Origin: Defluviitalea phaphyphila
Lineage (GTDB): Bacteria > Bacillota > Clostridia > Lachnospirales > Defluviitaleaceae
Direction of reading: 5' to 3'
Assembly (NCBI RefSeq): GCF_001466305.1
Contig: NZ_JWID01000013.1
Location: forward strand, 1-45,069
Length of the DNA stretch: 45,069 bases
Both the position numbers and the translations under genes were made by a program. Position 1 is the stretch's first letter; each line of letters opens with the position of its first letter. Below, piece after piece: positions 17,958-34,378 of the stretch. The notes below the pieces were generated by a model. It searched no databases. It was not told the DNA's origin and saw only the letters and a list, made by a program, of their open reading frames with translations.

Positions 17958-20156
17958 TTACTTCCAGGTTTCTAAAAACGCACTCAAAATCAAATATATT
18001 GAGTGGCTACCTGCATCTAAATATCCTACACTTTTTTCTTGTAAAAATTTAGCTCTTCCTCTTGTAGCCTTCATTTCCATGGTTGCTAAAGAACCTTTAT
18101 GAGCACCTTCTTTTGCACATTCCATAACATCTAGAAGGTTGTCCCCTTCAAACACATCACAAGCATCTTTTGCACCATATAGGGCATCTAACATAGTTTT
18201 TTCTCCACGTTTTGTTCCTGTTAAATCGGTAATTGCATTAATTGTGTTCTCAATGCTCTTTTTATATACTTCAACATCTAATTCTTCTTTTTCTTTTAGT
18301 AAAGTTGACATCTGAATAAATAGTAAGCTAAATATAGGCCCTGATGCTCCCCCCATACTTTCAAGCATTGCATATCCTATAGTTTTTAATACTTCACTGC
18401 CTGTAGCTGAATCATCTAACTCTTGTACTTTTTCATAAGCCCTTTGAAAACCTCTAGAAATTGTTGTCCCATGGTCTCCATCTCCAGCTTCAGAATCTAG
18501 CTTACATAAATATTCTGCATTTTCCTTAAATAAAGCGTTTAAATTAGCTGCTAGTTCTTTATATTTATTTTTTACACCAATTATTGATCGTATATGTTTA
18601 AGTCCTTTTTCCGCTTCTTCATATGGGTCTCTATTTTTCCCATTCCATATAAATAATGAATTTCCTACTTCAGTTCCGCTCTCTACGAAGCTTTCCATAT
18701 CTAAATATCCTCTATAATTATTCTTTTTCAAGATATCTATAATTTTTTTCCAATCAATATGTCCTGTTCCCGGAACTCCCCTGTGATTTTCACATATGTG
18801 AATACATCCTATATATGATATATTTTTTTCTAAAGCCTTATAGATATCATCTTCTTCAATATTCATATGGAAGGTATCTACTAACAGCTTTACATTATCT
18901 AGATTAATCATTTTCAAAAATTCTACTGCTTCTTCAATTCTATTAAAGAAATCTGTTTCAAATCTATTAATCACTTCAATATTTAAACCTATATTTTTTT
19001 CTTTTGCATACATTCCCACTTCTTTTAATACTTTAGATGCATTCTTCCATCTTATTTCCCTTGGGGTATCTGAGAATTTTTGCCATGGAGCATATAGTAC
19101 TCCATTTAGATATAATCCGCCTCCATCAGCAACTAAATCTACACATTTTTTTAAATAATCTGTTGCATTTTTTCTAATGTTTTCATCTTCACTACTTGGG
19201 TCGGTATCTTCTGTTACTCCTGTACCACAAATAACATCCAATCCTAAATCATTTGCTAATTTTAAAGCTTTTTGTATTTTTTCTTCTGTACTTCCGAACA
19301 AAGATATTTCTACTCCATCAAAACCTATCTCTTCTACTTTCTTTATATGAGGTAAAATATCATCTGTCCAATTTTTGCAAAACATAGACATGTGTACAGC
19401 TACTTTCATATCGATCCCTTTCTTTCTTCTTTTATTTTTCACATTTGCCTGTGCCATTGTTGTTTCTTCATAAACTACCGGATTATTTGAGTTATCATAA
19501 GCAATGGATTTTTTTAACATCAACTTTTTTTCAGGTTCAACATTCAAAACTTTAGCATCTTCTGGATTTTCAATGATTTCTTCATAAATCTTTAGTCTTT
19601 TAACACATTTGATATCAAAATTCATTTCCAAAACCTTAAATATAGATTGTCCCATACCTGCAACTGATAAATATTCCTTAGTAAAACTAGGTGCTAGGTG
19701 TTTTGGAATATAAGACCTTGTTATCCACATGGGTTGATTATCTATAAATCTTACTCTTTCTAAAAAGAAACATTCTTCTTTTTCTTTAATACCTATACGT
19801 TTGGCTAACTGTGCATTTGCTTTTATAACTTGAAACTTTTTAACCTTTGTTGTAGGTACATGACCTTCTTTCATTACTTGAGTTGTAAAACTATTCATCC
19901 AAGTCCAATCATTGTTGTATAAATCATTAACAAAAGTTCCTACACCTGGAACAGTGCGAATAATCCCTTTGTCTAGTAAAACTTTGTAAGCTTTTCTAAC
20001 AGTGACTCTGCTCACATTATATTGTTGCTGCGTTTTTAGCTCACTATTCATGGGTTCGCCTCTTTTTAAAATCCCCTGTTTAATTTGTTTTTCAATATCT
20101 TCTGCTATTATTTTATATTTAGGTATTGAACGTTTCTTTTTATTTATTTTTATCAC
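17958..20156 (-). CDS. Composite ORF: GntR/UTRA regulator - ketose 3-epimerase-like barrel - DhaL kinase domain
   Basis: One 732-codon frame holds three units. Residues 1-240 are a GntR winged helix (NVSRVTVRKAYKVLLDKGI) with a UTRA ligand domain. Residues 250-525 are a TIM barrel of the tagatose/allulose 3-epimerase group. Its catalytic set E394, D427, H453, E488 has the same spacing (33, 26, 35) as the classical quartet. Residues 528-732 are DhaL, with D554, D559 and D561 in LDSEAGDGDHG and MGGASGP at 601-607. M250 (base 19409) has its own AAAGGG site. One added A in the A-run just before (GTGAAAAATAAA) would stop the GntR part, so the first junction may be a frameshift or sequencing artefact. 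The barrel-DhaL join has no internal start and looks genuine. Start is GTG, overlapping the aldolase gene. Confidence 0.85.
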   Translation of the reverse strand: MIKINKKKRSIPKYKIIAEDIEKQIKQGILKRGEPMNSELKTQQQYNVSRVTVRKAYKVLLDKGIIRTVPGVGTFVNDLYNNDWTWMNSFTTQVMKEGHVPTTKVKKFQVIKANAQLAKRIGIKEKEECFFLERVRFIDNQPMWITRSYIPKHLAPSFTKEYLSVAGMGQSIFKVLEMNFDIKCVKRLKIYEEIIENPEDAKVLNVEPEKKLMLKKSIAYDNSNNPVVYEETTMAQANVKNKRRKKGIDMKVAVHMSMFCKNWTDDILPHIKKVEEIGFDGVEISLFGSTEEKIQKALKLANDLGLDVICGTGVTEDTDPSSEDENIRKNATDYLKKCVDLVADGGGLYLNGVLYAPWQKFSDTPREIRWKNASKVLKEVGMYAKEKNIGLNIEVINRFETDFFNRIEEAVEFLKMINLDNVKLLVDTFHMNIEEDDIYKALEKNISYIGCIHICENHRGVPGTGHIDWKKIIDILKKNNYRGYLDMESFVESGTEVGNSLFIWNGKNRDPYEEAEKGLKHIRSIIGVKNKYKELAANLNALFKENAEYLCKLDSEAGDGDHGTTISRGFQRAYEKVQELDDSATGSEVLKTIGYAMLESMGGASGPIFSLLFIQMSTLLKEKEELDVEVYKKSIENTINAITDLTGTKRGEKTMLDALYGAKDACDVFEGDNLLDVMECAKEGAHKGSLATMEMKATRGRAKFLQEKSVGYLDAGSHSIYLILSAFLETWK

Positions 20157-23926: not shown

Positions 23927-24159
23927 ATTTCAAATTCCTTATAGGTAGTTTCCAAACTCTCTGAAGATAAGTATGAAGGTAGTAGGAAATACAAATTTCA
24001 ATTCCTTATAGGTAGTTTCCAAACGATATTCATTATGCTTCTTGTTTTGTATCACAAAATAAGTTTCAATTCCTTATAGGTAGTTTCCAAACTTACTGTG
24101 TATTTACCACAAAAAGATGGAAGTTTATTGTTTCAATTCCTTATAGGTAGTTTCCAAAC
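23927..24159 (-). CRISPR. CRISPR array 1: four repeats, three spacers
   Basis: The 30-base repeats start GTTTCAATTCCT and end TAGTTTCCAAAC on the plus strand, at 24130-24159, 24063-24092, 23995-24024 and 23927-23957. The last, farthest from the leader, is decayed (inserted A, lost first base). Spacers are 37, 38 and 37 bases. Read on the minus strand, repeats end ATTGAAAC, the usual 8-base 5' tag of type III and I-B crRNAs. The leader is at 24160-24330, so transcription is leftward. The array is immediately downstream of the type III effector operon. Confidence 0.95.
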
Positions 24160-24330
24160 CATTGGGTTGCTGTGTTTATCGCTATTTTATATTTTCTACG
24201 TCTTTTAAAAAAATCCTTCTTTTTTTATATATTTTTTTATAAAATATTTATTTTTCGGGGTTTGTTGGTTAAATTGAATTCCGTCGACCCCCCGGGATTT
24301 TTGCACTACTGGAGGTCGACAGATTTTTAA
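24160..24330 (-). promoter_or_regulatory. CRISPR leader of array 1 with terminal hairpin
   Basis: About 165 bases nearly identical to the leader at 33413, differing at only a few positions (for example AATATTTATT versus AATGCTTATT, TTGGTT versus TAGGCT). A minus-strand TATAAAAT lies about 26 bases before the first repeat. The distal end is the GTCGACC/GGTCGAC hairpin (24283-24320) with a plus-strand T-run at 24324-24328. It ends 55-65 bases from the stop codon of the Cmr3-like gene. Confidence 0.88.
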
Positions 24331-24384
24331 TTTTATAATAATACATATTTAAATCTTTATCAACTTTTAAAAATAAAATTTTAT

Positions 24385-25257
24385 TTATACATTATTCAAG
24401 ACAAATTTCCCTTTTACTAAAGAAAATTTATTATCAAAATAGCTTTGTCCTTTTAGTATCTTACTGCCGGGGTAAATGCAAAATACAGCTTGTTTGTCTT
24501 CTTTATAAACTGAATTTTCATATATAAGTCCATATTTCCCCTTTATTCTAAGGTCTATTTCTTCAGGTTTTAGCTGTAAATAATTCTTTAAACTAATAGT
24601 TTCATCTTCATCATTCTTTTTTATGGTACCATCAACATTAATTCCCCAATTACTTAATTCATTTTCAACAGTTTCTCCATTTAAAGTTTCTACTAATTTC
24701 ATATAACCCAATCCATAGCGAGTATCTCCACCAATAAATATTTCTGAAAATATATCATTAACATCAATATTAGCTTCTCTATTTTCTAAACCTAATAATC
24801 CTATCCAGTAAAGCTGTTCCCCTGTGAGTTTATCTCTTTGACAAATAAATTCTGTCATATGAAGGCTTTCATCTTTAGCAGCTCTCATAGAAGATTCGAT
24901 TGATGTTGAAACAAAACTATCAACAAATCTTAATAGAAATTCATCTTCTGAATATTTTATTTTTTCATCTTGGCTTTTAAAATAAAATAATCCATTTTCG
25001 TATTGGGGATATAAAACTTTATAATTATCACCTTCTTTAAATGCTGGGAAAAAACAAGTTATAGTTTTTAATCTATCTCCAATCTTTTTTATCTCTTGTA
25101 CATTATTAACTTTTTGTTTTGTAATATAAGTATTGGTTAAGGCACCCCATATAGTATTTCCATTAATAAATAAGTTTGTTTGACTCAATACACCATATTT
25201 ACTTTTTCCTAAATAAACAGGCTGCTCCTGTTTAAATATAAGCTTGTACCATTTCAT
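24385..25257 (-). CDS. Type III CRISPR RAMP protein, Cmr3/Cas5-like
   Basis: The protein has 290 residues and is the last gene of the effector operon. RAMP features include an N-terminal beta strand (WYKLIFKQEQPVYLG), the mid segment NTIWGALTNTYI, a glycine-rich IFIGGDTRYGLGYMKL near 190-205 and YPGSKI near the C-terminus. This is like Cmr3, which caps the complex and holds the crRNA 5' tag. Its ATG overlaps the stop of the small-subunit gene by four bases (ATGA). Position and length favour Cas5/Cmr3 over another Cas7. Confidence in RAMP is high, in Cmr3 moderate. Confidence 0.8.
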   Translation of the reverse strand: MKWYKLIFKQEQPVYLGKSKYGVLSQTNLFINGNTIWGALTNTYITKQKVNNVQEIKKIGDRLKTITCFFPAFKEGDNYKVLYPQYENGLFYFKSQDEKIKYSEDEFLLRFVDSFVSTSIESSMRAAKDESLHMTEFICQRDKLTGEQLYWIGLLGLENREANIDVNDIFSEIFIGGDTRYGLGYMKLVETLNGETVENELSNWGINVDGTIKKNDEDETISLKNYLQLKPEEIDLRIKGKYGLIYENSVYKEDKQAVFCIYPGSKILKGQSYFDNKFSLVKGKFVLNNV

Positions 25258-25730
25258 GCACTTTTGCCCCCATTGTTATCTTCCATTGACTTAAGATGGT
25301 ATCTAGCATAAGTTAATATCCTTTCTAAAACGCTTCTGAAAAAAAGAAGTTCATCTAAATTTTTAGGAAGTTCCTCAAAAAATTTTTCTATATTTTTATT
25401 TAGTCCGTCTTTTGATAATCCCATTGCATTTATTAAATCTTTACCATCTTCGGATTTTATAATTTTTTCAATAAATATTTTCTCAACGTAATTTATTTCA
25501 TTTTTCTCATTTTTTGTATTTTTTTGTTTTTGTTTATTATCTTTATTATTTTCATTTTTCTTATTTTTACTTTTCCTAGACCTGCAATAAACAAAATATG
25601 CATAAACTCCATCATTGATTAAAATACCTAATAATTTTTCTAATTCATTCTGCACTCCTTTAGCGTTTGCTTCTTTAGCTATATCATAGGAAATTTTATT
25701 TATTAGCACATCAAGATTATTTTCAGCCAT
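25254..25730 (-). CDS. Type III CRISPR small subunit, Cmr5/Cas11-like
   Basis: This is a 158-residue, mostly helical protein. The first helix pair (LEKLLGILINDGVYAYFVYC) and the C-terminal helix (ERILTYARYHLKSMED) resemble Cmr5. In between lies a Lys/Asn-rich low-complexity stretch (about residues 50-78) without obvious structure. Cas11 subunits stack along the crRNA-target duplex inside the effector. It overlaps the Cmr4-like gene by eight bases at its start and the Cmr3-like gene by four at its end. Assigned mainly from size, helical character and position between cmr4- and cmr3-like genes. Confidence 0.75.
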   Translation of the reverse strand: MAENNLDVLINKISYDIAKEANAKGVQNELEKLLGILINDGVYAYFVYCRSRKSKNKKNENNKDNKQKQKNTKNEKNEINYVEKIFIEKIIKSEDGKDLINAMGLSKDGLNKNIEKFFEELPKNLDELLFFRSVLERILTYARYHLKSMEDNNGGKSA

Positions 25731-27090
25731 TATTTTGTGCCCCCTCTATATCACTGTTATCTTTATCATCTAAAACAACCTTCATCCTTCCAAATCCTCT
25801 TGTTGTAAGTCCTCCTATTCCTAAAGTTTCAAAATAAAATTTACTACTTAAAAGCATATTTTTTATATCTCCAATAGTAGGTAATATACCTTTGTCAAAA
25901 ATACTCTTATCAAAAATTCTTATATTTCCATAGAAAATTGTTCCTCTTGGGATTGCTTCTGAAGTAAATAGTCCCCCATCCTTTGCTGTACCTGTTATTG
26001 GGTCAATGGATACAGATGTTCTTACTTCTAAATTAGCATTTACAACCTGATTAAATATTTTATCTGGAACTAGAACTATATCTTCAGCCTTAATATTTAA
26101 TTCATTTTTTTTCTTATCATTACTATTTAATTCATCAGTATTTAATTTATCATTATTTGTACTGTCCTCATTAATTTTGAATTCATAATCCTTTAGTTTA
26201 TAATAAACCTTGTTTACATCTTCTGATTTTTTAACTTTTATATTTAACCAGCCAAGATTGATATACTCATTGCCTTCTTTATCATACTCATATGCATATT
26301 CTATTTCATCATCTTTTACTTCATTACCTGTTAAATGTTTTATCTTTTCTTTTGTAGTAATAAATTTTGTACCTAAACGTGTATAAACAGGAAATAAAAT
26401 AATCTCTAAATCAGAAAAGAATAATATTCCCTGCCATGAATTACTGTTTTTAGAATATCCAAAGGATTTACATACAATACATCTTCCACAATGTCCTTCT
26501 ATAAAATCTTTCTCTATATCGTCTTCTTTTATTTCTTCCTGTGGTAATTCATCTTGTCCAGCACAATAAATTGTGGAATAAATGCTGTGCTTTATTATTT
26601 CCATATTTTCATATATTTTATCTAAGAACTGTTTTATTTCTTTATCTTGTTCCGTTTCTCTATCTTTATACTCTTCAAAACATTCCCAAAAATCTTTCCA
26701 TTTCTTTTTACCTATATCCCAAAATATATGTCTAAATTTTAAAATAAATTGTCTAAAATTAGCTTTTTTAAGATCTTCTTTTTGCTTTTCTTCATCTTCA
26801 ATATGATAGCCTTTACCTTTCAAATAATCTATATAGGATTTTATGAAATCCTCTTTCCTTTTAAACTTTGACCAAGTATAATCTAAATCTTTCCATTTAC
26901 CTTGAAAATAAAGGGCACTATAAAATCTCCAAGTACCTGCAAGGGATGATCCAGGAATTTTTGGCACCCTATTTAGCGGGTCCCTCACTATAGTATTATC
27001 TACCCGTCCAATAGTATATCCTCCTGTACCTATATATATAGGATCTGTAGCTTTACTAAATATTTTAATTTCTTCAATCATGTTAGACAT
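25723..27090 (-). CDS. cmr4: Type III CRISPR backbone RAMP, Cmr4/Cas7-like
   Basis: This 455-residue protein is longer than typical Cmr4 (about 300). The N-terminus reads YIGTGGYTIGRVDNTIVRD followed by PKIPGSSLAGTWRFY, the Cmr4/Csm3 pattern. Asp31 in GRVDNTIVRD lines up with the catalytic target-RNA-cleaving Asp26 of Pyrococcus Cmr4. A cysteine motif CGRCIVCKSFG near 205 probably binds zinc. Near the C-terminus GIGGLTTRGFGRMKVV is the glycine-rich RAMP loop. Two charged insertions (about 65-180 and 290-330) explain the extra length. It starts two bases after the cas10 stop. As backbone it would slice target RNA at 6-base intervals, if active. Confidence 0.9.
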   Translation of the reverse strand: MSNMIEEIKIFSKATDPIYIGTGGYTIGRVDNTIVRDPLNRVPKIPGSSLAGTWRFYSALYFQGKWKDLDYTWSKFKRKEDFIKSYIDYLKGKGYHIEDEEKQKEDLKKANFRQFILKFRHIFWDIGKKKWKDFWECFEEYKDRETEQDKEIKQFLDKIYENMEIIKHSIYSTIYCAGQDELPQEEIKEDDIEKDFIEGHCGRCIVCKSFGYSKNSNSWQGILFFSDLEIILFPVYTRLGTKFITTKEKIKHLTGNEVKDDEIEYAYEYDKEGNEYINLGWLNIKVKKSEDVNKVYYKLKDYEFKINEDSTNNDKLNTDELNSNDKKKNELNIKAEDIVLVPDKIFNQVVNANLEVRTSVSIDPITGTAKDGGLFTSEAIPRGTIFYGNIRIFDKSIFDKGILPTIGDIKNMLLSSKFYFETLGIGGLTTRGFGRMKVVLDDKDNSDIEGAQNNG

Positions 27091-27092
27091 TT

Positions 27093-30000
27093 TTAAACCT
27101 CCCTCAAAGCTTTATGCCAGAATTCATACATATCTAAAAACATCAATATACTTTTTATAAATTTTTCATTTTCTAAATTTAAAATATTATCTATGAAATT
27201 TGCTTCTGTATTATCATCTTGGTTAATACCAAAAATTTTATATAGTTTTGAAACAATATCCTCGTTATTTTTCAATTCAAGAGTGTTATAGAATAAAACA
27301 GCACAGAATTTTTTAAACTCATCATAGTTTTTACCTTCTATTACCTGCCAATCATACATTTTGGAATATAAAAGACTTATAAGATTATTTAATTTTGTTT
27401 TGAAATTATCATGAAAAATCTCTTTAAATGCTTCAAACTTTTCCCATTCTTCCCAAGTATACGGTCTATTATTTTTTAATTTTAAATATCTTTTATATGT
27501 TTCTTTATCATAATAGATATCATTTACCCTAGTATTAGTATCTATGAATTCAAAATCTACTGTATTCGGATAAATAGTGTATTTTACATCTTTAGTAGTA
27601 TTAGAATCTAATGGAATAGAGAATTTTTCTTCATTATTTAAAAAGAAAAATTCAAAACCTTCATCATCACTAGTTTTATAAAGAGAATAAAACTGACATA
27701 TCCCATCCTTTGTTTTACTAGAAATTTTACATTTACAAGGCAACTTTTTCATTTCATTTTTATCTAAAATCAAAGCCGTTTTTTCTATATCTTCCGGTCT
27801 TTCTAATTGTCTTTCCATTTTTCTTAAAGCTTTTATACCTATGTATAGAGGCATTTTATAATCTTGAACAACAACACCTATATGTAAAGGCAGCTTCCCA
27901 TATACCAATTTAAAGTGCTTCATATATATTTCCTGCACTTTTGTAATAAAATCCTGTGTTTTATCAGCAGGAATTATAAGCTGGGTTGATATAGGACTTG
28001 GAGATGTTATGGTAAATACAGGTTTGTATTTACATATTTCAACTAAATTATCTTTGTTTAATGTAATTTTTGTCTTATCATCATTAACTTTTTCTATTGT
28101 TATTAGTTTTAAATAATTCTTTAATTCGTCGACATCTTGATTATTATTTATAATTTCTTTTGCACTATCATCTCTAAAGATAAATTTTTTAGCTTTTGAA
28201 AGAGAAGTTATAAGTAGAATATTCCCACTTTTATAATAAAAATCTAATTCTTTGTATTTATATAGTCCTTCTGGATAACTTTGGTCTACTCTAAAAATAA
28301 GTCTGTAAGTTCTATACTTTTCATTATCTAAATCTAAAAGTTTGTATGCATTTTGGTTTACTTCTTCCATAAAGTTTTGAGTACTATCCCATATACGTTT
28401 AAGCCTTGCTGGTGAAGGAGATTTAGTTATGAGGAGCTGAAAAAGTAGTTTAGAAAACAACTCTATATGTTCATCAGTCATCTGATCAAATTTAATTTCT
28501 CCAGTACTAACATTAATAATTTCTTTTTCTGAATTAAATAAACTTATCCATCCTTTATCTGCAGCTGGATTAATAAAAATCTGTTTAAAAAGATCTTTTA
28601 GTGTTTCATTATGCCTACAACATCCATCAAATGCATCATATGCAATTCCAATTATATTTTTAGGACTATTTTTACCTACAATATATCCAAGTAACCAATT
28701 TTTACATAATTGTAGCTTATCTATACGATGCATTTTTTCTTCTATATAATCTAAAGCCACATATAAATTATTTAAATCATCATTTTGAGGAATTTTCCCT
28801 TCTAAATTGGATAAATTATCTCTGATATCATCTATATGCTTTTTAATTTTATCAGATACATTCTGTCTATAAATATATTCTTTTATGTCTTCACATAATT
28901 TGTCCATCGTATATCTGATATTTTTAAATTTTTCAAGTTCGTTATTTAAATTTCTTAATTTACTATAGCATATATTTGTCTCTTTTATATTAAATTTGTT
29001 GAACTTATCTCTTTGCTCTTTTATCAAATTAATGATTTCTTCACTAAAAATAATCCGATTGCAAAACATATTTTCTATAAAATATTTTATATATTGATAT
29101 CCATCAACTTGAACATTTTCATGCATTTTTAAACTACTCATCATTTCCCCATTAAGCCACAAATCTAAATCAAACTTGAAGGTTATAAGGGCAATTTTAC
29201 CATTATCACTTTGCAATTCACCTGTCCATATGGTTTCTTCCTCTAAATTATCAAACCAGTTTTTAACTCTTGACTGTCTTCTCTTATTGCAAATATCACA
29301 TACATGGTAATCTCCATCAAAAGTTTCTGCAGTCCTTACACCACAAATCTGACATATATTATTACTAGCTTTTTTTACTTCGGGAAAACTGTATATCTTT
29401 TTATTTAAAAAATTATCTCTTGAATTTTCAAGTAATTTTGAAAGAGTTAAAAGACCTCTACTTTCTTCGGTACATAAAATATAGGGAAATACTTCTGAAT
29501 CACTTTCTTCTTTAAAAATCTCATATATTTCTTTTTCTAATAAAGATAAGTCACTATGTATATTATAAAAATTAGATGAACTATTGGTTTCTATTTTTTC
29601 TCCCTTAATATTTTCTGGAGCAAGAAAATAAATGCCTGTTTCATCTCTATATATCTCATTACCAAAGGCATATTTTATTTCTATTAAATTTTTAACATTA
29701 TTATCAATTTTTTTTATAATTTCTTTGTAACCTTGTATATAACTACATTTTAGTGCTTTCTCATAAAGGGATTTTTTATCATATTGAACTCCAAGTATAC
29801 ACCATTTTATATCCTGTGGATTTTCTTGATATGTATTATATTTATTATTATCTAATACTATTGCTGCTAAAGCACTTTTAAACATAGTAGCAGTCATATA
29901 TGCCTGATCCCAAAGACTGACATCATTTATAGGATATCGGTCATCACTTAAAAGATGGCTATACCACTGCTTTATATTTTCAAATATATATTTTCTTATT

Positions 30001-30611
30001 TTTCCCCAACATGGATCTGTAAAATAATTATTTTTATCTAAAAAGTAAAAAAGATTTTCAAAAAAATTTTTTCTCTTTTCATCTAAATACATAGAATTAA
30101 TTTCCTCTTTAAAACTTCCAAAGGCATTAGAAAGCCATAATATATTAAGCTTTTGTCCTGCATTAGGACTTCCTTTGTCAATACCAGAATTTATATTCTC
30201 ACACCCTCTAGCAAAAACCTTTTCTACAAATTTTTTATTGCTCACATTACCTTTCATTATTTCAATAAATTCAATTTTACTTTCTGTAATATTAATCTCT
30301 GTATTTAAAATATTAATCTTTGTATTTAAAATAAATTTAAGTAATTCGTCACTACTATCTTCAGATGAACTACTTTTTTTTATTCTCATATCAAATTCAT
30401 AAATTTTTTTATTATAGTATTCATCATATTTGCTAAATTTTTCATATCCAAATCTATTTTTAAATTGAGTTTCATCTATATCAGGTTTAACCTTACCCTT
30501 CCAACCACCAAAACCAACATGAGTTTTTCCTAAATTAAATAAGAGAGCCGCTGTTTCAGCTTTTAAAATTTCTGTACTGTTATCTTTTAACTCATATATT
30601 TTATTAGCCAT
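27093..30611 (-). CDS. csx11: Cas10 of the Csx11 / type III-C kind, with both active sites lost
   Basis: This is the large subunit, 1172 residues. The usual N-terminal LLHDIGK reads ALLFNLGK (F25-N26), removing the HD pair. A second HD-domain motif, usually LWDHS, reads LWDQA (D235-Q236). A zinc knuckle has C420, C423, C438 and C441. A coiled-coil stretch lies at about 535-640. SPSPARLKRIWDSTQNF (731-747) and KLPLHIGVVVQDYKMPLYIG (906-925) are typical of Csx11. Where active Cas10 has GGDD before LLALLP, this has ITSPSPISTQLIIPAD (868-883). So neither DNA cleavage by HD nor cyclic oligoadenylate synthesis is expected. RBS GGGGAGGTAGTAG precedes the ATG. Family call rests on recalled motifs and gene order. 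Confidence 0.88.
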   Translation of the reverse strand: MANKIYELKDNSTEILKAETAALLFNLGKTHVGFGGWKGKVKPDIDETQFKNRFGYEKFSKYDEYYNKKIYEFDMRIKKSSSSEDSSDELLKFILNTKINILNTEINITESKIEFIEIMKGNVSNKKFVEKVFARGCENINSGIDKGSPNAGQKLNILWLSNAFGSFKEEINSMYLDEKRKNFFENLFYFLDKNNYFTDPCWGKIRKYIFENIKQWYSHLLSDDRYPINDVSLWDQAYMTATMFKSALAAIVLDNNKYNTYQENPQDIKWCILGVQYDKKSLYEKALKCSYIQGYKEIIKKIDNNVKNLIEIKYAFGNEIYRDETGIYFLAPENIKGEKIETNSSSNFYNIHSDLSLLEKEIYEIFKEESDSEVFPYILCTEESRGLLTLSKLLENSRDNFLNKKIYSFPEVKKASNNICQICGVRTAETFDGDYHVCDICNKRRQSRVKNWFDNLEEETIWTGELQSDNGKIALITFKFDLDLWLNGEMMSSLKMHENVQVDGYQYIKYFIENMFCNRIIFSEEIINLIKEQRDKFNKFNIKETNICYSKLRNLNNELEKFKNIRYTMDKLCEDIKEYIYRQNVSDKIKKHIDDIRDNLSNLEGKIPQNDDLNNLYVALDYIEEKMHRIDKLQLCKNWLLGYIVGKNSPKNIIGIAYDAFDGCCRHNETLKDLFKQIFINPAADKGWISLFNSEKEIINVSTGEIKFDQMTDEHIELFSKLLFQLLITKSPSPARLKRIWDSTQNFMEEVNQNAYKLLDLDNEKYRTYRLIFRVDQSYPEGLYKYKELDFYYKSGNILLITSLSKAKKFIFRDDSAKEIINNNQDVDELKNYLKLITIEKVNDDKTKITLNKDNLVEICKYKPVFTITSPSPISTQLIIPADKTQDFITKVQEIYMKHFKLVYGKLPLHIGVVVQDYKMPLYIGIKALRKMERQLERPEDIEKTALILDKNEMKKLPCKCKISSKTKDGICQFYSLYKTSDDEGFEFFFLNNEEKFSIPLDSNTTKDVKYTIYPNTVDFEFIDTNTRVNDIYYDKETYKRYLKLKNNRPYTWEEWEKFEAFKEIFHDNFKTKLNNLISLLYSKMYDWQVIEGKNYDEFKKFCAVLFYNTLELKNNEDIVSKLYKIFGINQDDNTEANFIDNILNLENEKFIKSILMFLDMYEFWHKALREV

Positions 30612-30635: not shown

Positions 30636-31844
30636 TTATTCAATTGTCCATCCTTCATATTCCTTTAACTCATCTTGATTTCGTTTTATTATAGTTTTAT
30701 CTTTCATCTCAAACTGACCCCATCCATATTTTCTTTTTGCTCCAATCCCTTCTTCTTGAAGTTTTTCAAGAGATTTTATTATAAAATCTAAATCTTCTTC
30801 TGCCTCTTTTCTCATCTCTTCTTTATTTTTGCTAAATATAATATCAAAAGGTGTGTAGACTAATATAAGATTTGCCTTTTCTCCTTTAGGTACTACCTCA
30901 AAATATATTGGGGCTTCTCCTGCTCTTTTTTCCCTTGAATGTCTATTTATAATCTCTATGTTAATTTTGTTAAAATACATGGGATAAAAAGTAAGCCTAC
31001 CTTTTTGAATTTTAAACTCTTCTTTATCTTTTATATTTTGATTTATCCAATCTATTATTTCATTTACAATATTTTCGTGATTTTTTGAAGCCAATATGCT
31101 ATCAATTGTTTTTTTAGTAATCTTTCCACCAAAATTTAGCAAAATAAAATTAATAAATTGGGCTGCTATTTCTTTTTTTGTTTTATCCGTCAGACTACCT
31201 AAATTCTCACTATTGAATAATTTTTTTAATAGTTCATTTAATGTTTTTATTTCATCATTCCCACTGCCAAAAATTCTTAAATATTTTATTAATTCACTGA
31301 TTAAATTATTTTTATCTTGATTAATTGATTCATATATTACTTCAGCTGCACATACTGAAAGTTTCCCTTTTATTCCACTACCTCTTGCCATGGGAGTTTT
31401 GGTAGCTTTATCTTTTAAAATAGGATTGTTTATATAATAATATTCTTCATCATCACGGGAAAAATAGGGCTGTTTAAGTGTAATGTTTGTAAAAATTGCT
31501 AATGTATATGGTATAGAAGGTTCAACAATATTGCTCTTTAAATACTCGATATCAAGTTTTTCTATATTTTCATTTTCCCAATTTTTTTGATTAAATAATA
31601 TTATATATTCTTTTAATATTTCTCTTACTTTTTTTTGAAATTTTTTTTCTTCTTCTTTATCTTCTGGATTTAATATTTCGCTTTTTATAACAAATAACAT
31701 CTTAGATAGACCATAACATTTTAATTTATCGTAATAATTAGATATATAATTAAATATATCCTCTTTTTTATTTTCTTTGTTTTTTAAATTTTCTTCCAAT
31801 TTTTTTTTAACAATCAAAAATTCATCATATACGTAATCTTTCAC
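30636..31844 (-). CDS. Type III CRISPR RAMP protein, Cmr6/Cas7-like
   Basis: Lysine-rich RAMP of about 403 residues. The central motif NITLKQPYFSRDDEEYYYIN followed by NPILKDKATKTPMARGSGIKG matches RAMPs seen in Csx11-containing loci, and GIGAKRKYGWGQFEM near the C-terminus is the glycine-rich RAMP loop. I favour the GTG at 31844 (reading KDYVYDEF) because AGGTGGTGG lies just upstream; longer starts at 31919 or 31880 would overlap the Cmr1-like gene. It sits between the cmr1-like and cas10 genes, the order expected for III-C-type operons as I recall them. Cmr6 forms the 3' end of the backbone in Cmr complexes. Confidence 0.8.
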   Translation of the reverse strand: MKDYVYDEFLIVKKKLEENLKNKENKKEDIFNYISNYYDKLKCYGLSKMLFVIKSEILNPEDKEEEKKFQKKVREILKEYIILFNQKNWENENIEKLDIEYLKSNIVEPSIPYTLAIFTNITLKQPYFSRDDEEYYYINNPILKDKATKTPMARGSGIKGKLSVCAAEVIYESINQDKNNLISELIKYLRIFGSGNDEIKTLNELLKKLFNSENLGSLTDKTKKEIAAQFINFILLNFGGKITKKTIDSILASKNHENIVNEIIDWINQNIKDKEEFKIQKGRLTFYPMYFNKINIEIINRHSREKRAGEAPIYFEVVPKGEKANLILVYTPFDIIFSKNKEEMRKEAEEDLDFIIKSLEKLQEEGIGAKRKYGWGQFEMKDKTIIKRNQDELKEYEGWTIE

Positions 31845-31863
31845 CTTTATTTCCACCACCTTT

Positions 31864-32910
31864 TTAATAATATAAGCCATCGAGAAGTAAAAATCCTGTT
31901 TTAAAATTGCCACTATCATCTTTTCCTACATACGGCAATACCTTTGAACCTTGAGTCCCTTCCTTTGTTGTACCAAAAACTTTATGCCTTAGATATCCTT
32001 TTATTACATTCCTATATTCTGTTTTTTCTTTTAAAACATCCGTTATATAACTTTTATATGTGCTTTCTACATATTTTTTTATCGCTTTATTACTTTTTTT
32101 ATTTTTAAAAGGTTCAAATTCTTCATTAGTTTCTGCTAATACTACTAATTGCCCTTTATTATCATTTATTCTATATTTTATATTTTCAAAGTGCTTTTTT
32201 ATATCATACTCTTTTTTATTTTTTATGGTAATGGATTTAGTAAACTTAGCATATTTTTTTAAATTTACTTCCTGTTTTATAGATTCATCAATAACCTCTA
32301 ATACTTCCACTCTACCAAAACCAAGATTCCATTTACCACCTAAATAACCTACTTCATTTATAAAATACAGAAGTGGATAGAAATAATCTTCTAAAAGAAG
32401 TTCATTTACTTTAAACTTCACAGAAAGTTTTCCTATATAAAGTTTAGAAGGAAGAAACCAACATTTAGCTTTTTTATTATTTTTTTTAATTTCTATTTTA
32501 ATTTTTTTTATTTCTGAAATATTATTTTTTATATCTGTAATTTTTTCTATAGTTATATTCCCTTTAAAATTCTCACAACCAAATAAAAGATCGGACCATT
32601 TTTTTATTTTAAAAGTTTTTTTGTATTCCTCTAAAATCATTTCATCCCAAGAAGAATCTTTAGGATTTTCAAATAATTTCTTTAATATAATTTCATTAAT
32701 CTTTGGTTTAGAATCTTCTTTATTAGTATTTTTTGTTGATTCATCTATTTGATCCATCGTAATTTTTTTATCATTTAACACATTTACAACATCTAACCAA
32801 AAACGCATACATCCTAAAATTGCAGACGGTCTTATTTCTGTGAAATCTTGTATTGCGTTTCCAAAATAAATAGGAGTTAAGGTGTTAAATTTAACTTTTA
32901 TAGTTTTCAT
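31864..32910 (-). CDS. cmr1: Type III CRISPR RAMP protein, Cmr1/Cas7-like
   Basis: First gene of the effector operon, 348 residues. It begins with the Cmr1 pattern KVKFNTLTPIYFGNA and EIRPSAILGCMRFWLDVV. The glycine-rich GYLGGKWNLGFGRVEVLEV lies near residue 200. Cmr1 binds the 3' end of the crRNA-target duplex. The ATG at 32910 follows GGGGTGTCT; the frame could open six bases earlier at GTG within that site. The ~200 bases upstream to array 2 contain the array terminator and extremely A+T-rich sequence, and a promoter for the operon is probably there but I cannot define it. Confidence 0.87.
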   Translation of the reverse strand: MKTIKVKFNTLTPIYFGNAIQDFTEIRPSAILGCMRFWLDVVNVLNDKKITMDQIDESTKNTNKEDSKPKINEIILKKLFENPKDSSWDEMILEEYKKTFKIKKWSDLLFGCENFKGNITIEKITDIKNNISEIKKIKIEIKKNNKKAKCWFLPSKLYIGKLSVKFKVNELLLEDYFYPLLYFINEVGYLGGKWNLGFGRVEVLEVIDESIKQEVNLKKYAKFTKSITIKNKKEYDIKKHFENIKYRINDNKGQLVVLAETNEEFEPFKNKKSNKAIKKYVESTYKSYITDVLKEKTEYRNVIKGYLRHKVFGTTKEGTQGSKVLPYVGKDDSGNFKTGFLLLDGLYY

Positions 32911-33085
32911 AGACACCCCTTCAATTCAATAATGATATTTTATTACCACTATAAATAGACAAATTTATATCATAAATATAAATAATTTGCTTTTATTTTA
33001 TCATATTTAACAAGAAAATCAATATTTCTCCTTTTTATTTTAAATAAATTTCGAATTTATCTACAATTCTCAAAATAATTAAAAC

Positions 33086-33116: not shown

Positions 33117-33412
33117 ATTTCAATCCTTATAGGTAGTTTCTAAACAGCATTGGAAGTTTCAATGTGAAAATATAGAATATATGTTTCAATTCCTTATAGG
33201 TAGTTTCTAAACAAGTACTTGAAACTTATTATGGTAATTTAGAAGTTTAGTTTCAATTCCTTATAGGTAGTTTCTAAACAAAATATAATTAAAAATTTAT
33301 TGATATTTATATAAATTGTTTCAATTCCTTATAGGTAGTTTCTAAACTGGTATTACAAAATGGGGTTTAGACTCCAATGAATGTTTCAATTCCTTATAGG
33401 TAGTTTCTAAAC
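33117..33412 (-). CRISPR. CRISPR array 2: five repeats, four spacers
   Basis: Repeats start GTTTCAATTCCT and end TAGTTTCTAAAC on the plus strand, at 33383-33412, 33318-33347, 33250-33279, 33183-33212 and 33117-33145. The last is shortened by one T and has lost its first G. Spacers are 35, 38, 37 and 37 bases. The repeat differs from array 1 at one position near the end (TCTAAAC versus TCCAAAC). The leader is on the right, so it is transcribed leftward toward the effector operon. Repeat 3' ends carry ATTGAAAC as crRNA tag. I found no match between spacers and other parts of this window by eye. Confidence 0.96.
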
Positions 33413-33581
33413 CCATTGGGTTGCTGTGTTTATCGCTATTTTATATTTTCTACGTCTTTTAAAAAAATCCTTCTTTTTTTATATATTTTTTTATAAAATG
33501 CTTATTTTTCGGGGTTTGTAGGCTAAATTGAATTCCGTCGACCCCCCGGGATTTTTGCACTACTGGAGGTCGACGGATTTT
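33413..33581 (-). promoter_or_regulatory. CRISPR leader of array 2 with terminal hairpin
   Basis: Full-length leader. Near the repeats CCATTGGGTTGCTGTGTTTA, then a minus-strand TATAAAAT (plus 33438-33445), then long T-rich tracts, TTTGTAGGCTAAATTGAATT and the hairpin 33537-33574. On minus-strand RNA the hairpin stem is 12 bp including CCGTCGACC/GGTCGACGG and one G-U pair. A plus-strand T-run follows. It ends about 50 bases from the stop codon of the gene at 33629. Confidence 0.88.
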
Positions 33582-33628
33582 TTAGTTTTATTAATTTATG
33601 AATTTGAAAATTTAATATCCTATTTAAA

Positions 33629-34174
33629 TTAATTATCTTTGCTTATTCTCATTATTGGGTCTTGGTCGTGAAAAGCAATGCATATAGGTATTTTAACTGT
33701 ATTAGCTATCTCTGATACTACTTTTGCAAAAACACAAACAGTTCTTGCAACTAAATATAAAGTACTTCCAATAGCCTTATCAGTTGAATCAAATCCATTT
33801 TCTAAATAAATATCTCCATAACTTTTTAAATCTGGGCCATCAATTACTTCGTTCCAATCACATGCCCAGTCATCGTCTTCTTCTTCTAATGAATTATACT
33901 CTTCACATATAAAAAATCCACTGTTCCATTCATTATCTAGATCATATTCATAATAGATAGCCTTTGCCGAATTTTGATTAGCTATATCTATGGATTGTAT
34001 CAATCCTTCTTTAAGTCCTTGCTCAAAAGCTTCTAAATTTACACTTCTAATTTTTTCTACCTGCTCTTTTCCTGCTAATTTTAAACATAATGAAGAATAT
34101 TTTTCTTCTATTTTTTCTAAATCTCCTTCAAATAATTCATTTTGCATTTCTTCTAAGTATTGAAATATTTCCAT
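33629..34174 (-). CDS. Acidic protein of unknown function directly behind a CRISPR leader
   Basis: I do not recognise this protein of 181 residues. It starts MEIFQYLEEMQNELFEGDLE at the ATG at 34174, preceded by AAGAAAGGATGG; the frame is open further upstream into leader sequence, but that part is not protein-like. It is acidic (EYNSLEEEDDDWACDWNEV) with a more hydrophobic C-terminal helix (STLYLVARTVCVFAKVVSEI) and no signal peptide. It lies between two CRISPR leaders, both pointing leftward like the gene. The ribosome binding site lies in a decayed repeat, and the upstream leader is the nearest promoter. A defence, anti-defence or cargo function would be guesswork. Confidence 0.75.
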   Translation of the reverse strand: MEIFQYLEEMQNELFEGDLEKIEEKYSSLCLKLAGKEQVEKIRSVNLEAFEQGLKEGLIQSIDIANQNSAKAIYYEYDLDNEWNSGFFICEEYNSLEEEDDDWACDWNEVIDGPDLKSYGDIYLENGFDSTDKAIGSTLYLVARTVCVFAKVVSEIANTVKIPICIAFHDQDPIMRISKDN

Positions 34175-34179
34175 TAAAC

Positions 34180-34378
34180 CATCCTTTCTTATAGATAGGC
34201 TAGAAACCCATTTGTTTGCTGTATTTATCACTATTTTATATTTTCTACATCTTTTTAAAAAATCCTTCTTTTTTTATATATTTTTTATAAAATGCTTATT
34301 TTTTGGGTTTTGTAGGCTAAATTAAATTCCGTCGATCCCCCGGAGTTTTTCCCCTACTACAGGTCGACGACTTTTTTA
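34180..34378 (-). promoter_or_regulatory. CRISPR leader with a single decayed repeat
   Basis: Leader sequence from CCATTTGTTTGCTGTATTTA (34207) to the hairpin 34331-34368 (GTCGATC...GGTCGAC, one stem base changed, CCCCTACTACA centre) and T-run 34371-34376. The repeat (34180-34207) keeps TATAGATAGGCTAGAAAC but has lost its tag end, which now reads as the AAGGATGG ribosome binding site of the 33629-34174 gene. No spacer or second repeat remains. By leader and repeat sequence it belongs with the copies at 92 and 44885. Confidence 0.82.

Follow-up and report, generated by a model that had tools for sequence, protein, structure and literature searches.

Type III CRISPR-Cas immunity is usually explained by two outputs of Cas10, its DNase activity and its synthesis of cyclic oligoadenylates. 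What, then, could a type III complex do if its Cas10 retained neither? The question is posed by an operon in Defluviitalea phaphyphila, within a stretch of 45,069 nucleotides (assembly GCF_001466305.1, contig NZ_JWID01000013.1, positions 1 to 45,069; herein referred to as the window), where an initial annotation had read a Cas10 that has lost both its nuclease and its cyclase signatures.

The operon lies wholly on the minus strand in the order cmr1-cmr6-cas10(csx11)-cmr4-cmr5-cmr3, which is identical in relatives, and all six of its open reading frames are intact. PADLOC recognizes two genes of the Cas7 group, cmr1 (31864-32916; E 3.1e-53) and cmr6 (30636-31919; E 7.3e-67), the Cas7 backbone gene cmr4 (25723-27090, 455 aa; Cmr4 E 8.8e-39, with TIGR02580 at 101 bits against a cut-off of 87), the Cas11 gene cmr5 (25254-25730; III-C Cmr5 E 6.7e-27) and the Cas5 gene cmr3 (24385-25257; E 2.1e-60). 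The 1172-aa product of cas10 (27093-30611) is assigned to Cas10c by PADLOC (E 2.9e-117) and to Csx11 by the NCBIfam model TIGR02682 (477.3 bits, cut-off 248.95), an identity with which its AlphaFold2 model agrees. A Csx11-family Cas10 with substituted palm residues, a Cmr-type backbone in a single operon and a locus free of CARF and SAVED genes are the marks of type III-C, whereas type III-B is marked by a Cmr2 with a GGDD cyclase motif, which the window Cas10 lacks; by its gene content, the locus encodes a complete type III-C effector. A 200-aa open reading frame adjoining the upstream array (33629-34231, minus strand) was considered as a linked effector and set aside, having no family match and no homologue in other III-C loci. 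Elsewhere in the window, a single 732-aa open reading frame (17958-20156, minus strand) whose neighbours encode Dak1 and an aldolase combines GntR, UTRA and DAK2 domains with a TIM barrel of the xylose-isomerase-like kind, and is either an unusual regulator/isomerase/kinase triple fusion or the result of lost stop codons.

The N-terminal region of the window Cas10 carries substitutions at each HD-nuclease position that we compared (all codons given for this protein are on the minus strand). ALLFNLGK had been noted in the place of the HD pair, and alignment bears this out: F25-N26 (30534-30539) stand opposite the HD of LLHDIGK in the Csm1 encoded by the same genome. The reading of LWDQA (residues 233-237) as a replacement for LWDH holds equally, with Q236 (29904-29906) occupying a position that is histidine in three complete relatives and that aligns to the second histidine of ISLYHH in the same-genome Csm1 (hhalign E 0.14, weak alone). 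Position 138 is aspartate in the three complete relatives, where it is taken as the HD-domain Asp ligand, and glutamate here (E138; 30198-30200), so that a third ligand is likely altered besides F25-N26 and Q236; the comparison covers the HD pair and positions 138 and 236 of the domain. The sole HD dipeptide of the protein, at residue 1067, is near the C terminus and far outside the HD domain, and an alignment with 85 Csx11 relatives places no intact site elsewhere in the protein. Because FN and Q recur across 16 independently assembled sequences, chance or sequencing error can be excluded as the origin of the altered motif. The protein keeps the four cysteines of the Cas10 zinc finger (C420, C423, C438 and C441; 29289-29354), which are invariant in 42 sequences and lie in a region that aligns with the Cys region of III-D Cas10.

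Structure prediction recovers a whole Cas10 fold around these substitutions. The full-length AlphaFold2 model (42-sequence input; mean pLDDT 78.5, pTM 0.83) is matched by VIA-align to a Cmr2 lacking its HD domain (Z 20.2 over 413 residues at 3.9 A) and to full Csm1 (Z 15-19); a PDB sequence search with the window Cas10 gave no Cas10 match. When residues 1-268 (29808-30611) were predicted separately (pLDDT 85.9), the top 35 VIA-align rows were without exception N-termini of Csm1 (Z 7.7-11.7 over some 160-180 residues at close to 3 A), and the next family, Cas2/3, followed at Z 5.0. Residues 12-13 of the model start opposite Csm1 residues 1-2, and from these range ends we place F25-N26 roughly opposite Csm1 residues 14-15, where the HD pair usually lies. 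The Csm1-type match, together with F25-N26 near the HD position, indicates that in the predicted structure the HD fold is kept and its catalytic, metal-binding pair is gone; the N-terminal domain is thus modelled as a dead HD fold rather than as one with a misplaced motif.

The palm domain tells a similar story. The 1172-aa protein contains no string resembling GGDD. Single-sequence hhalign against Csm1 was too weak to align the palm and the III-D Cas10 of the same genome served instead, placing S872-P873-I874-S875 (27987-27998) at its GGDD (E 2e-4), in agreement with the alignment of relatives. The initial annotation, which had put SPSPI (residues 870-874) at this place, was right to within two residues, and its premise that cyclase loss is already established for III-C stands as well: the literature calls III-C cyclases inactivated, and GGDD was found in none of the 24 Csx11 proteins of the phylum. 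Alignment, structure prediction and phylogeny all support a Cas10 in which both the HD and the cyclase sites are dead.

To collect those proteins, 398 genomes of the phylum, Bacillota, were searched by profile; 23 of them encode Csx11, which with the window protein gives the 24. The HD pair is missing from 15 of the 24, which have FN (five), AL (two) or H followed by another residue (eight) at its position; nine have the pair, and only three (from genomes G157, G243 and G167) retain all four positions, that is, H, D and the equivalents of D138 and H236. A second set of 71 loci was drawn from named genomes with LW[DE]Q-type patterns and is biased against LWDH proteins, so its proportions are not frequencies. 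Searches of genome contigs recovered relatives with an alignment query (a single-sequence query matched nothing), and a scan of IMG/VR with the Csx11 alignment gave no match. FN is found in 16 of the 86 combined Csx11 proteins, a motif-biased pool, and its carriers, a good many of which are MAGs, belong to Bacillota, Aquificota, Gracilibacteria, Paceibacterota, WOR-3 and Neomarinimicrobiota. When the motif columns were left out of the tree, the window protein fell inside a 26-row group (SH-aLRT 100) in which no member has the HD pair, and the complete HD site requires one change. Proteins that share only 35-40% identity over their length still show strong conservation of FNLGKTH and GCENINSGIDKG. 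FN is thus conserved and has not drifted, a hint of some constraint beyond mere loss.

Loss of both Cas10 activities was therefore present as first read, but it is not exceptional; among the III-C sets surveyed, it is the state met most often. The literature implies as much (PMC11229360, PMC8730458): Hoikkala et al. 2024, scoring mainly the HD pair, reported that III-C lacks a cyclase site and that an HD domain can be recognised in half of III-C systems (PMC11229360), which leaves half without both. Two further observations concern the relatives themselves. Genome G171, which matches Thermosyntropha lipolytica DSM 11003, carries two complete III-C loci (L034, L035), with an FN Cas10 in one and an AL form in the other. 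In Thermoanaerobacter thermocopriae, and likewise in one MAG of Hydrogenothermaceae and two of Planctomycetota (L113 9968-13337, L116 9935-13511, L163 and L160), the cas10 gene is broken up over several frames; these split genes are either pseudogenes or assembly errors.

The RNA-slicing residue of the backbone is kept. Asp31 of Cmr4 (codon 26998-27000, minus strand), which the initial annotation had described as retained, is present in the window and invariant in III-C Cmr4 (77/77) whatever the state of the accompanying Cas10, and the same Asp is found in a III-A Csm3 control; with this residue in its Cas7 backbone, the complex would have the catalytic Asp expected of a slicer. Neighbour clustering over 82 III-C loci finds the six core genes in 63 to 82 of them, followed by Cas3-like genes in 14 and by Cas6-like and Cas1-like genes in nine each (labels by eye), and no accessory effector gene recurs beside the core in these 82 loci.

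Two CRISPR arrays bracket the operon, one upstream with five repeats, the first divergent (33118-33412, minus strand, leader at the high-coordinate side), and one downstream with four (23928-24159, minus strand). Both are short, with degenerate first repeats. Their leaders of ~170 bp (33413-33590 and 24160-24335) are near-identical, and each ends in a strong hairpin with a GTCGACC/GGTCGAC stem (z of roughly -2.7 to -4.7 relative to shuffled sequences), after which comes a T-run; near-identical leaders of this kind suggest that array plus leader was duplicated around the operon. Three spacers, searched singly, found no phage target, and a search for self-targets of the spacers in selected stretches of the genome gave only the short matches expected in AT-rich DNA. 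Another contig of the genome (C37; L082, 8139 bases) consists mostly of further arrays of the III-C repeat family with a like leader type, their repeats ending in GCTAGAAAC rather than TTTCC/TTTCTAAAC; it also carries a gene pair, one member of which encodes an AAA_21 ATPase, and a fragment in which this pair is duplicated in part.

The operon is one of several CRISPR systems in this genome, the rest of which was covered by targeted searches and selected stretches. These contain four Cas6 genes, a III-A locus whose Cas10 has LLHDIGK and YAGGDD, a III-D locus in which two CARF-HEPN proteins are encoded next to a Cas10 with LGGDD, and a I-B locus with cas1 and cas3. Both the III-A and the III-D Cas10 look active. 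The observation that no CARF effector is nearby holds at the III-C locus but not genome-wide, given the two CARF-HEPN genes beside the III-D Cas10; genes for cyclic-oligoadenylate signalling are present in the cell, outside the III-C complex.

We hypothesize that the III-C complex is a crRNA-guided slicer of target RNA, acting through Cmr4 on a Cas10 scaffold with RNA cleavage as its only direct output, and we regard this as probable. The crRNAs would come from the flanking arrays, matured presumably by a Cas6 from another locus of the genome, and would guide the assembled complex onto complementary transcripts, which the Cmr4 copies would cleave through Asp31. Cas10, with neither a working HD nuclease nor a cyclase, would be structural, holding the 5' end of the complex and probably reading tag/anti-tag pairing, so that neither DNA cleavage nor cyclic-oligoadenylate synthesis would be expected and sequence-specific RNA cleavage would be the sole direct output. 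Of the two roles suggested by the initial annotation, a pure RNA slicer or an RNA-binding regulator, the invariant Cmr4 Asp makes slicing the best output left to the complex, and nothing positive speaks for the regulator. By analogy with the III-B complex of Pyrococcus, in which a Cmr2 HD/palm double mutant still sliced target RNA in vitro and Cmr4-D26N did not (PMC7192623), slicing is a strong biochemical prediction. A role in defence is more tentative: a Pyrococcus III-B strain with a mutated Cmr2 HD and a deleted csx1 lost anti-plasmid immunity although its Cmr4 was intact (PMC7192623), and slicing alone may therefore defend only weakly.

Target binding might instead recruit a separately encoded effector (a nuclease, a protease or another protein), with the FN/E/Q pocket as a docking or allosteric site, in a manner comparable to III-E Cas7-11 and its protease. 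The strong conservation of FNLGKTH and GCENINSGIDKG is what one would expect of a former HD pocket under selection, yet such conservation could simply maintain the fold, and the neighbourhood of the 82 III-C loci offers no recurring candidate, which leaves recruitment an unlikely explanation. In a related form, the dead pocket (F25-N26, GCENINSGIDKG and Q236) would have become a conserved site at which an unlinked partner or a ligand binds, and a Cas10 with neither activity would in this way still trigger a second output of the complex, an idea we hold to be slightly less likely still. That the substitutes (FN, HM and AL) are clade-specific and conserved might also mean that the altered pockets perform a different catalytic chemistry and that Cas10 is still an enzyme; however, the metal-binding DD is missing from every relative, HD, D138 and H236 are all replaced in the window protein, and in the AL sub-clade part of the motif is missing outright yet the Cmr4 Asp is kept, and we consider this highly improbable.

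The company that the operon keeps allows a further interpretation, in which the complex is a brake: by slicing viral transcripts and giving no signal, it would shorten the activation of the III-A and III-D complexes of the same cell and limit self-toxicity. The genome does hold III-A and III-D Cas10s with GGDD along with the two CARF-HEPN effectors, and canonical Cas10 occurs in 5/6 same-clade genomes of the phylum compared with 23% of background genomes (p 0.004). We nevertheless set this co-occurrence aside as evidence, as it is not significant when the comparison is made with Cas6-bearing genomes (5/6 vs. 73/173, p 0.09; 10/17 for all III-C genomes, p 0.21), and the repeats linked to III-C are not those of the III-A and I-B systems of the same genome; a brake therefore seems to us improbable. 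Least likely of all is that the locus is decaying and non-functional: the lost catalytic motifs and the short arrays with their degenerate first repeats could be read in this way, but the six reading frames are intact, the motifs are conserved over six phyla and the Cmr4 Asp is invariant.

The slicer that we favor resembles known systems in part. Nothing places the locus outside type III-C (Csx11/Cas10c, formerly MTH326-like), with which it shares a Csx11 above the curated cut-off, an inactivated palm, Cmr1/3/4/5/6, the absence of a CARF effector at the locus and CRISPR arrays alongside, and within which it belongs to the sub-clade with FN for HD. The III-B Cmr systems (such as that of Pyrococcus furiosus) have the same six-subunit plan and Cmr4 Asp, but their Cmr2 has GGDD and often HD, and the window protein has neither. 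In III-E Cas7-11 (gRAMP), Cas7 domains cleave RNA without cyclase or DNase, as predicted here from the genes; III-E is, however, a single fused protein without Cas10, whereas the window encodes a multi-subunit plan with a Cas10 scaffold. Types III-G and III-H share the inactivated cyclase and are otherwise the opposite, having kept HD and lost the Cas7 Asp, and are hence predicted DNA cutters (PMC12669027).

The double-dead Cas10 is thus a known, under-studied condition of III-C and not a new system. Csx11 was named an inactivated Cas10 in 2011 (PMC3150331), Koonin and Makarova hold that the role left to an inactivated Cas10 is purely structural (PMC8730458), and the literature searched, outside which most subscription papers lie, yielded no biochemistry of any III-C complex. 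To this we add the clade with conserved FN, the rarity of complete HD sites (3/24), the constancy of the Cmr4 Asp (77/77) and the lack of a recurrent effector across the 82 loci, figures for which the literature searched gave no published counterpart. The III-C relatives that have neither of the Cas10 outputs let one ask, in a test set by nature, whether slicing of RNA is by itself enough to defend the cell, and why such systems keep Cas10 at all.
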